A stretch of 64,000 nucleotides of DNA from Bacillus sp. REN16 (lineage in GTDB: Bacteria > Bacillota > Bacilli > Bacillales > Bacillaceae_L), in assembly GCF_020731355.1 (NCBI RefSeq), contig NZ_JAJFZK010000004.1, positions 1 through 64,000 on the forward strand. Reading direction: 5' to 3'. Below, piece by piece: positions 57,133 through 63,700 of the stretch. The notes under the pieces were generated by a model. That model searched no databases, was not told where the DNA came from, and worked only from the letters and a program-made list of their open reading frames with translations. Every line of letters begins with the position of its first letter. Positions within the stretch are counted from its first letter, which is position 1. Both the position numbers and the translations under genes were made by a program.

Positions 57133-58164
57133 ATGAAGCCAAGAATCGCAATTAATGGATTTGGCCGTATAGGTAGAATGGTATTTAGAAATGCAATTAT
57201 GGATGATTCATTAGAAATAGTTGCAATTAATGCAAGCTACCCTGCTGTTACGCTAGCACATCTCATAAAATATGATACAAACCATGGTAAATTCGATGCG
57301 GAAGTCATTCCTGAGGACGATTCTTTATTGATAAATGGAAAGCGGGTTCAGCTTCTTAGCTCCCGCGATCCTTTAGAACTTCCTTGGAAAAGCTTAAATA
57401 TAGATATTGTGATAGAGGCAACTGGAAAGTTTAATTCAAAGGAAAAAGCGAGCCTGCATTTACAAGCTGGGGCAAGAAAGGTTATCTTAACAGCACCTGG
57501 TAAGAATGAAGACATAACAATTGTAATGGGTGTTAACCAAGATAAATTTGATCCTGAACAACATGCCATTATTTCGAATGCATCCTGTACAACAAATTGC
57601 TTAGCACCGGTTGCAAAGATATTAAATCAGCAGTTTGGAATTGTAAACGGTTTAATGACAACCGTTCATGCTTATACAAATGATCAAAAAAATATTGACA
57701 ATCCGCATAAGGATTTGCGAAGAGCAAGAGCCTGTGCACAATCAATCATTCCTACATCAACTGGAGCAGCAAAAGCGTTATCACTTGTCTTGCCTGAACT
57801 AAAAGGAAAATTGCATGGAATGGCACTTCGTGTTCCAACTCCAAATGTGTCATTAGTTGATTTAGTTGTTGATGTTGAACGAGATGTTACCATTGAAGAA
57901 ATTAATGAAGCTTTTATTACTGCTTCAGTGGGATCATTAAAAGGCATTTTGGATTTTACGACTGAGCCACTCGTATCAATTGATTTTAATACAAATCCAC
58001 ATTCATCCATTATCGATGGCCTGTCTACGATGGTCATTGGAGATCGTAAGGTAAAGGTATTAGCTTGGTATGATAATGAATGGGGGTATTCTTGCAGAGT
58101 TGTAGATTTGGTTAAATATATTGGTGCAAAAATCATCCAAAAAACAGAAGCAAAAGTAGGATAA
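57133..58164 (+). CDS. gapB: Glyceraldehyde-3-phosphate dehydrogenase, gluconeogenic GapB
   Basis: Runs the GAPDH reaction in the gluconeogenic direction, usually with NADP. The 343-residue protein has INGFGRIGRMVFR and the catalytic Cys152 in SNASCTTNCLAPV. The sequence after the second strand (INASYPAVTLAHLIKYD) lacks the acidic residue of NAD-specific GapA, which agrees with NADP use. PTSTGAAKALSLVLPELKGKLHGMALRVP and WYDNEWGYSCRVVDL are conserved. CcpN boxes upstream and the polA-coaE-gapB-speD order support GapB rather than GapA. Confidence 0.95.
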   Translation: MKPRIAINGFGRIGRMVFRNAIMDDSLEIVAINASYPAVTLAHLIKYDTNHGKFDAEVIPEDDSLLINGKRVQLLSSRDPLELPWKSLNIDIVIEATGKFNSKEKASLHLQAGARKVILTAPGKNEDITIVMGVNQDKFDPEQHAIISNASCTTNCLAPVAKILNQQFGIVNGLMTTVHAYTNDQKNIDNPHKDLRRARACAQSIIPTSTGAAKALSLVLPELKGKLHGMALRVPTPNVSLVDLVVDVERDVTIEEINEAFITASVGSLKGILDFTTEPLVSIDFNTNPHSSIIDGLSTMVIGDRKVKVLAWYDNEWGYSCRVVDLVKYIGAKIIQKTEAKVG

Positions 58165-58171
58165 GGTCAAT

Positions 58172-58199
58172 ACCCTCCCAGTGTTAGGGAGGGTTTTTA
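58172..58199 (+). terminator. Terminator of gapB
   Basis: ACCCTCCC / GGGAGGGT stem with a 7-nt loop and T5. Confidence 0.93.
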
Positions 58200-58228
58200 T
58201 AATTTCATTTAATAATTCATGAAAGTTA

Positions 58229-58257
58229 TTGCTAAAAATATATAAACAAAGTATACT
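58229..58257 (+). promoter_or_regulatory. Sigma-A promoter of speD
   Basis: TTGCTA (58229-58234), a 17-bp spacer and TATACT (58252-58257). The inferred start is near 58264 and yields a leader of about 140 nt. Confidence 0.7.
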
Positions 58258-58263
58258 AGATTT

Positions 58264-58402
58264 CGTGAACTTCTTAAAAGCCTATGCTTTTGTAGCTACT
58301 TAAAGGGTTAGGACCTCTCTGGACTAACTTTCCCCCGTGGTAGTTATGCCCATGCTTTACGCGAAGAACTCACCAAAATTTTGTAAGAGGGGGAACAACT
58401 AA
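58264..58402 (+). ncRNA. Structured speD 5' leader, candidate cis-regulatory RNA
   Basis: A closing stem pairs GTGA and TTCTT (58265-58268, 58271-58275) with AAGAA and TCAC (58364-58368, 58370-58373). Inside are AAAAGC-CTAT-GCTTTT (58276-58291), GTTAG...CTAAC (58307-58311 with 58324-58328) and GGTA-GTTA-TGCC (58339-58350). TTTCCCCC (58329-58336) is perfectly complementary to AGGGGGAA (58388-58395), the speD Shine-Dalgarno. A second GCTTT at 58354-58358 can compete for AAAAGC. This looks like a translational switch. The ligand is unknown; SAM, decarboxylated SAM or polyamines are natural guesses from the gene. I do not recognise a known riboswitch class here. Confidence 0.55.
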
Positions 58403-58405
58403 ATG

Positions 58406-58786
58406 ATGGAAACAATGGGACGACATGTAATCTCTGAATTATGGGGTTGCGATTTTGAAAAATTAAATGACATGCAAGGTATTGAAGAAACTTTTGTTCA
58501 AGCGGCTCTAAAGTCAGGTGCAGAAATTCGTGAGGTAGCATTTCACAAGTTTGCTCCACAAGGAGTAAGCGGTGTTGTTATTATTTCGGAATCACATTTA
58601 ACAATTCACAGTTTTCCTGAACATGGATATGCAAGTATTGATGTTTACACATGTGGAGATTTAGATCCGAATATTGCTGCAGACTATATTGCTGAGGAGC
58701 TCGGTGCGCAAACGCGCGAGAATATCGAACTTCCACGTGGTATGGGCCCAGTACAAGTTAAGCCAGCACAAGTTAAAGTACTTTAA
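58406..58786 (+). CDS. speD: S-adenosylmethionine decarboxylase proenzyme
   Basis: Makes decarboxylated SAM, the aminopropyl donor for spermidine. The 126-residue proenzyme is the short Bacillus type and self-cleaves between Glu62 and Ser63 in [15 protein letters not shown], giving the pyruvoyl cofactor on Ser63. TCGDLDP and [12 protein letters not shown] are conserved. An ATG at 58403 directly precedes the chosen ATG; the latter gives the family N terminus [15 protein letters not shown]. The GAGGGGG site can be sequestered by the leader. Confidence 0.96.
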
Positions 58787-63424: not shown

Positions 63425-63700
63425 TATTACAAAAACTGCATTATACTTAAAAGTTATGATGAGGACATGAATGTATGATTACGGTTATCAGAGAGGGAAG
63501 ACTAGGCTGGAAGCTTCCTAACACGAATGATACATTTACCACCTTTAAACTTCAGTAGTGAACCTTTGCGTAGCAAAGCTGTAATTGCTGACGGGCAAAC
63601 CGTTATTTATTTCTTGAGCCACTTGATTTTTAACTGAGTGGAAACAAGGGTGGAACCACGATACATATACTCGTCCCTTTTTTAGGGATGGGTATTTTTT
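63425..63700 (+). promoter_or_regulatory. T-box riboswitch of thrS
   Basis: The T-box core AAGGGTGGAACCACG is at 63646-63660. A 12-bp terminator stem ATACTCGTCCCT / AGGGATGGGTAT (63667-63678 with 63684-63695) and T6 follow at once, giving the terminator/antiterminator pair. Stem I lies upstream, with AGAGAGGGAAG and GGCTGGAAGCTTCC elements. ACC threonine codons suited to the specifier occur at 63538-63543 and 63562-63564; the second, in GTGAACCTT, looks more likely. Uncharged tRNA-Thr should permit read-through into thrS. Confidence 0.9.

Follow-up and report, generated by a model that had tools for sequence, protein, structure and literature searches.

In the SAM-III (SMK box), SAM-II and SAM-V riboswitches, the Shine-Dalgarno (SD) sequence is paired with a region of the aptamer and the ligand blocks translation, and in the preQ1-II and preQ1-III riboswitches a loop strand forms a pseudoknot with the SD sequence. 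The eukaryotic mRNA of AdoMet decarboxylase is likewise controlled by its own pathway, in this case via a peptide-dependent upstream open reading frame (uORF). The leader of the bacterial speD gene considered here resembles the SAM-II, SAM-III and SAM-V riboswitches in the predicted pairing of the SD sequence with an aptamer-like region, but it has no Rfam match, features another core and precedes speD instead of metK or met genes. With preQ1-II and preQ1-III it shares the putative SD pseudoknot, although it matches neither model and belongs to other genes. The eukaryotic uORF concerns the same enzyme activity and also acts on translation, whereas the speD leader lacks a conserved open frame. 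The closest system in terms of pathway is the spermidine riboswitch, a variant of SAM-I known from 13 examples (Salvail et al., 2023, PMC10853860). That study describes it as an off switch of Gram-positive bacteria which precedes speD and other polyamine genes and whose SAM-I fold acts on transcription termination (PMC10853860). The speD leader has neither a SAM-I match nor a terminator and occurs in hundreds of genomes.

The leader itself has probably been encountered before. Co-immunoprecipitation with Hfq in Bacillus subtilis yielded a table row termed "Unknown or speD leader region" with a length of 79 nt and an enrichment ratio of 14.1, corresponding to a peak at 2966841-2966919 (PMC3574147, Table 2). 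This is probably the same RNA, represented in the accessible parts of the study by a table row without structure, conservation or mechanism (PMC3574147). There, Hfq peaks on known signal-responsive leaders are reported to lie almost only on aptamers and new elements are expected in the data, with nonspecific binding of stable RNA regarded as the likeliest cause (PMC3574147). In the open-licence literature, no description of the speD leader was found beyond this row; subscription papers were outside the scope of the search and may describe the element.

The window, i.e., the whole analysed stretch of 64,000 nucleotides from Bacillus sp. REN16, carries the leader between gapB and speD (Table 1). 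A promoter followed by a leader of about 140 nt had been proposed by an earlier sequence-only reading of the window, and both are borne out by the positions compiled here. Neither a terminator-like site between promoter and speD (58258-58402, terminator scan of the window) nor a tandem repeat in the leader was found. The coding sequence opens with two successive ATG codons (58403-58408); relatives use the second one at 58406 (ATGGAAACAATG), and the first may be unused.

Table 1. Features of the gapB-speD region, numbered from the first nucleotide of the window.
Feature	Position	Strand	Remarks
gapB (GAPDH), upstream gene	57133..58164	+	ORF of 343 aa; Pfam Gp_dh_N and Gp_dh_C
Terminator hairpin and U-run ending gapB	58172..58201	+	Terminator-like site 58172-58194, then T-run
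speD promoter TTGCTA-17-TATACT	58229..58257	+	9 of 12 consensus bases
speD leader RNA	58264..58402	+	About 139 nt to ATG at 58403; 5' end predicted from promoter
R1 covariance-model match	58264-58380	+	110.4 bits; single match in genome; leader itself among the 28 training sequences of R1
P1/P2 5' strand GUGA.AC.UUCUU	58265..58275	+	Pairs with 58364-58373; sequence and arm swap test
P4 5' strand	58292..58299	+	Pairs with 58340-58347; covariation
Conserved 5' junction UUAAAGG	58300..58306	+	Columns fixed or almost fixed; A4 covers every one except one
P5 hairpin GUUAG-GA-CC-UCUCU-GG-A-CUAAC	58307..58328	+	Nearly invariant in 126 leaders; only helix given there by RNAalifold
Anti-SD UUCCCCC	58330..58336	+	CCCCC in 134/134 distinct A-type leaders
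P4 3' strand	58340..58347	+	Covariation
P2/P1 3' strand AAGAA.C.UCAC	58364..58373	+	Closing-stem partner of 58265-58275; sequence and arm swap test
SD GGGGGAA of speD	58389..58395	+	Complementary to 58330-58336; GGGGG in 133/134 distinct A-type leaders
speD, S-adenosylmethionine decarboxylase	58403..58786	+	127 aa; Pfam AdoMet_dc PF02675, 130.5 bits

The folding energy of the leader is ordinary (z-score +1.47; 190 of 200 shuffles fold equally well or better) and was discarded as support. Since energy alone would not single the leader out, the evidence rests on its relatives. A scan for SpeD relatives provided at least 580 confirmed stretches, of which the best 80 were taken; all 80 contain the core of the leader, and the closest named relatives by SpeD among them are Bacillus timonensis and Fredinandcohnia onubensis. 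Within the genus of the window, SpeD was found in nine of nine genomes, with the core present in all nine main loci, five of them on the opposite strand; two extra SpeD copies of this genus (L010, L011) have no leader. Alignments were built from 48 of 65 distinct leaders (A1), from 28 leaders (A2) and from 126 standard-length core fragments of 130 distinct ones (A4, 63 columns), the latter with eight loci failing the anchor, six of which do have matches to the covariance model R1. The 48 aligned leaders share 48 invariant columns, and the 126 fragments of A4 align by the core alone almost without gaps. Across these 126 distinct leaders, the loop and hairpin residues are nearly invariant, with many of them being unpaired. 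The consensus of the core reads YUAC-UUAAAGG-GUURG-GACCUCNNNGGA-CUAAC-YUUCCCCC-GUG-GURR.

A similarly rigid arrangement was observed at the 5' end. In 81 of 81 close leaders (the 80 named loci and the window), a TATACT -10 box ends 6 nt upstream of CGTGAA; among 78 more distant leaders, 22 fit this pattern of box and CGTGAA and the other 56 do not. Due to this fixed distance, transcription should start ahead of the whole element, as the sequence-only reading had presupposed, and judging from the promoter position CGUGAA, which forms the 5' strand of the closing stem, is very probably the first sequence of the transcript.

The closing stem proposed previously consists of GTGA..TTCTT (58265-58275) and AAGAA..TCAC (58364-58373). 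In the comparison of leaders, P4 bears a conserved internal loop and the hairpin P5. From the three internal hairpins suggested at the same time, GTTAG/CTAAC (58307-58311/58324-58328) is conserved across the leaders, while AAAAGC/GCTTTT is confined to near relatives according to an alignment read by eye. In the named structure of 14 pairs comprising P4 and P5, 142 cells of the 126 leaders changed on both sides, all of them in P4, compared to 53 double-change cells after shuffling and 13-67 with slid partners. As relatedness inflates such cell counts, changes were also counted on a SpeD protein tree (104 of the 126 leaders, the protein pattern having missed 22), on which P4 showed 29 double changes in which a standard pair gave way to a different one vs. 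2-7 for partners slid by 1-3 positions. RNAalifold applied to the 63 columns of A4 predicted P5 and not P4 and found no double change; the case for P4 is made by the counts on the named structure and on the tree. In P5 there is hardly any variation, apart from one-sided changes that keep the pair (A-U/G-U, G-U/G-C, C-G/U-G) and one broken cell. For the outer arms P1-P3, which are too variable for column counts, an arm swap test with 84 of the 126 leaders after thinning was used, in which the own partner beats swapped ones (mean -13.55 vs. -11.06, sd 0.34; 0/5000 permutations). The outer arms of the window itself barely favor their own partner (-12.3 vs. -11.9), and four leaders of one family (L141, L144, L147, L151) feature no arm-partner fit. 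A pattern search for a P3 motif had 9 distinct hits and yielded nothing beyond them. In L140, L141, L144 and L147-L149, all of one GTDB family, the outer arms are seemingly absent and an ACUUUG...CAAAG hairpin ending at the GGGGG SD is possible. In another GTDB family (L173-L179, L191), GAUCCUAGC can pair back to UAGGAUC in P3 or forward to GCUAGG before the SD, a possible second switch.

The previous claim of an exact complementarity of two 8-mers, TTTCCCCC at 58329-58336 and AGGGGGAA at 58388-58395, holds with regard to their positions but not to its extent, as the helix of TTCCCCC (58330-58336) with GGGGGAA (58389-58395) comprises at most 7 bp, with -12.0 kcal/mol in isolation. Only the CCCCC/GGGGG part of it is conserved, and reading the R1-matched leaders by eye gave no support for an SD helix beyond this part. 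The anti-SD is the strand 3' of P5 and its SD partner lies beyond P4 and P1; the helix would span both stems and would therefore be a pseudoknot. GGGGG is an unusual SD for these loci: speD has it in 80 of 80 named loci, whereas the other frames there with a full five-base SD have GGAGG 60 times and GGGGG 7 times. If the window is taken by itself, GGAGG and GGGGG stand at 19 to 7 before its other frames, some of which are spurious.

For the count of the SD pairing, 184 distinct leaders out of 271 were used, consisting of 134 of the type of the window (A-type) and 50 divergent ones. The single A-type leader without GGGGG (L157) has a misplaced start, and GGGGG follows. Because CCCCC/GGGGG never varies in A-type leaders, distant leaders were examined. 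To this end, 60 genomes were taken from the 107 genomes of the class with SpeD but without an R1 match, and in 50 of these 60 a divergent leader was read by eye before a copy of speD. These Paenibacillus-type leaders have a rebuilt core and follow the layout UAGGAACCAGGAUUCACU ... AGUGAAUGACGUAGGUCCUAGC ... GCUAGG-SD or a variant thereof; two of them (L227, L233) yielded weak R1 matches under laxer filters (31.5 and 27.5 bits). The anti-SD is CUCCU in 16 of the 50 distinct divergent leaders, with AGGAG in the SD of 14 of the 16, while AGGAG occurs without a CUCCU anti-SD in 1 of 34 divergent and 1 of 134 A-type leaders. In terms of mean helix score, the CUCCU anti-SD reaches 7.25 with its own SDs vs. 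6.27 and 6.14 with others, whereas the CCCCC anti-SD pairs about equally with CUCCU-type SDs (6.39) and its own kind (6.42). Nevertheless, GGGGG is present as well in 14 of the 16 SDs opposite CUCCU, for which reason the covariation of the SD pair is graded as moderate support for the pairing. It is one-sided and appears to stem from few origins; a single base separates AGGAG from the AGGAAG present in the other leaders, and the CUCCU leaders may mostly share one origin. Further leaders exhibit CUCCU with AGGAG and no GGGGG (L294, missed by the pattern of the SD count) or GGGGAG opposite CUCCUC (L237, L270). In total, the fixed CCCCC/GGGGG together with the changes in divergent leaders provides good but not final support for the SD helix as judged by comparison. 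Conservation and covariation, the checks proposed along with the sequence-only reading, are both present, with the covariation of the SD pair counted as moderate. The SD complementarity is the feature most widely common to the leaders, including divergent ones, and can be predicted to mask the ribosome-binding site of speD. Two copies of speD, each with its own leader and representing the CCCCC/GGGGG and CUCCU/AGGAG types, were observed in three genomes (L254/L280 in G445, L253/L279 in G485, L262/L282 in G545), which offer a natural test of how the SD pairs.

The range of the leader was determined by the covariance model R1, built from 28 leaders with the SD excluded. Matches were obtained in 321 of 396 genomes (107 of 135 genera) of the order sample, in 186 of 398 genomes (85 of 146 genera) of the class sample and in 6 of 348 genomes of the phylum sample, all six lying within the class. 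Each matching genome listed has a single match. The SpeD family PF02675 is present in 292 of the 398 class-sample genomes and in 185 of the 186 R1-positive ones, with the exception (G636) having its match at a contig end. Flanks were read for the window and 79 loci, 30 weaker matches included: in 80 of 80, speD follows directly downstream on the same strand, and 75 of the 80 contain the core within 9 substitutions. The SpeD proteins encoded there are 40-86% identical to that of the window (window excluded). Species of the B. subtilis group, i.e., B. tequilensis, B. halotolerans and B. spizizenii (L066, L067, L081), possess the leader as well, and some speD genes have none (L223, L224). In four genomes, the only PF02675 match is a long protein (ORFs of 273-285 aa) without leader (L244-L247). 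Exact matches to the core pattern numbered zero in viral contigs, zero in phages and one in plasmids. Mobile spread was rejected, as this sole plasmid match is an ordinary polA-mutM-coaE-GAPDH-speD-nrdR block, in which a GAPDH gene again precedes leader and speD. The 258-kb plasmid of Anoxybacillus amylolyticus concerned carries this block together with dnaI (L296; NZ_CP015439.1, 57710-65791) and might be a chromid or a mislabelled replicon. Going by the genomes compared, the leader is real, widespread and strongly conserved.

The best reading of these results is an orphan riboswitch candidate that would repress the translation of speD via an SD pseudoknot and is new as a class within the literature checked. 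More fully, the leader is regarded as a cis-regulatory structured RNA that most likely represents a new riboswitch class acting on translation and featuring an SD pseudoknot, feedback on speD by a small molecule tied to the SpeD reaction and a register change of P5, for which we estimate a probability of roughly 0.64. The riboswitch-like layout with SD sequestration, already part of the sequence-only reading, is well supported, with small-molecule binding being our own supposition. The leader combines a conserved structure with fixed unpaired residues, the tie to the metabolic gene speD and a conserved complementarity suited to mask the SD. The enrichment of the B. subtilis speD leader region with Hfq also speaks for this reading, given the reported preference of Hfq peaks on known signal-responsive leaders for aptamers, whereas the nonspecific binding put forward in the same study speaks against it (PMC3574147). 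As there is no terminator between promoter and speD and the SD is predicted to be masked, control is expected at translation. The pseudoknot between the anti-SD, which is CCCCC and in part of the divergent leaders CUCCU, and the SD of speD would block ribosome binding. A small molecule, with dcSAM or spermidine as first and SAM or MTA as next candidates, may bind to the internal loop between P4 and P5 and would stabilize the pseudoknot by selecting a wobble-extended state of P5, thereby switching speD off as a feedback. Without ligand, the Cs would be held in the other P5 register, pairing with GGG, and the SD would be free.

The computed energies are compatible with two P5 registers of similar stability. 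The wobble-extended register reaches -13.4 kcal/mol and leaves five Cs free, while the register pairing GGG (58305-58307) with CCC (58332-58334) reaches -13.8 kcal/mol and takes three of them. Alternative folds had been anticipated before in the form of the anti-SD TTT extending the GTTAG/CTAAC stem. This AAA/UUU extension was rejected, being computed worse (-8.3 vs. -13.4 for the wobble extension) and missing in some leaders (L213). The -12.0 computed for the SD helix includes two Us used by the wobble register and is therefore too favorable a value for that state. For the SD stretch paired with an assumed 16S tail sequence, -11.4 was computed.

With respect to the signal, the location of the element before speD in all loci read points to dcSAM, spermidine or the SpeD protein as probable candidates. 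Spermidine as ligand would let copies be expected before other polyamine genes, and none were found among the 80 R1 matches read. We know of no riboswitch for dcSAM. End-product riboswitches often precede several genes of one pathway, so the use before a single gene fits autoregulation by SpeD equally well. Against a constant binding site stands the P5 core rebuilt in the Paenibacillus-type leaders. A farther-reaching version of the riboswitch reading, with a class across the Bacilli including the B. subtilis group which senses the SpeD product (dcSAM or spermidine) and in which a register change of P5 frees CCCCC for the non-canonical GGGGG SD, is advanced tentatively and at somewhat below even odds.

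Alternatively, the leader might respond to a protein, with SpeD itself or another RNA-binding protein binding the P5 core and holding the SD pseudoknot in an autogenous translational repression. The single match per genome, located before speD wherever it was read, and the leaderless paralogs in the genus of the window would suit this explanation. We consider it unlikely though worth serious attention, as the loop residues are fixed although SpeD is only about 40-47% identical to that of the window in some loci and as the rebuilt core of Paenibacillus-type leaders also argues against a protein site; furthermore, we know of no report on SpeD as an RNA binder. CsrA-type GGA sites, considered on sequence only, were set aside since GGA is absent from the interior of some divergent cores (L228).

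A constitutive translational attenuator or an RNA thermometer, which would sequester the SD without a specific ligand, would draw on the SD complementarity as the most widely shared feature. A thermometer requires pairing, with little fixed unpaired sequence. The leader, by contrast, has a nearly invariant junction, and dozens of its residues, often unpaired ones, stay fixed in more than 100 genera and both SpeD groups, which makes this explanation quite improbable.

Membership in a known riboswitch class, either the spermidine riboswitch or a type like SAM-II, SAM-III or SAM-V, has a still smaller chance. The principle of SD sequestration is the same as in SAM riboswitches. Gene and pathway also coincide with those given for the SAM-I variant in the accessible parts of its description (PMC10853860). 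Still, Rfam 15 gave no match to the leader of the window or of 20 diverse relatives at gathering score and nothing relevant in 58165-58480 at E up to 10, the sequence-only reading having likewise recognized no described SAM or polyamine riboswitch, and both the SAM-I aptamer fold and an intrinsic terminator are absent according to the Rfam search and the terminator scan. A T-box identity was rejected as well, as RF00230 matches elsewhere in the window and not in the leader; this T-box leader is located near the right end of the window (63447-63681; 95 bits vs. a cut-off of 93). Additionally, the window contains two Bacillaceae-1 RNAs (RF01690; 62294-62360 and 26741-26808), presumably a family of no known function, with a further match (46.4 bits) in the locus L228.

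That the element is mainly a separate small RNA, not acting in cis on speD, is highly improbable: the Hfq enrichment of the row "Unknown or speD leader region" in B. subtilis would agree with it as far as the accessible parts of that study go (PMC3574147), but there is no terminator before speD, the element adjoins speD in all 80 loci read and it is complementary to the SD of speD. Finally, the probability of a leader peptide, starting at the GTG at 58265 and ending with the TAA in CTTAAAGGG, is close to nil, for this frame is open in the window but the distance falls into the three frames 38, 29 and 18 times among 85 leaders with no frame conserved, and the GTG at the predicted 5' end leaves no space for an SD.

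Polyamine sensing in bacteria is largely an open issue. The leader described here precedes the dcSAM-making enzyme for spermidine in most of the genomes sampled in the order, and R1 offers a covariance model for a leader which is unnamed in Rfam 15. Due to its presence in the B. subtilis group, it is testable in a model organism. If the leader is a riboswitch, the known classes would gain one that uses an SD pseudoknot, and it could be decided whether these bacteria monitor dcSAM, spermidine or SAM.
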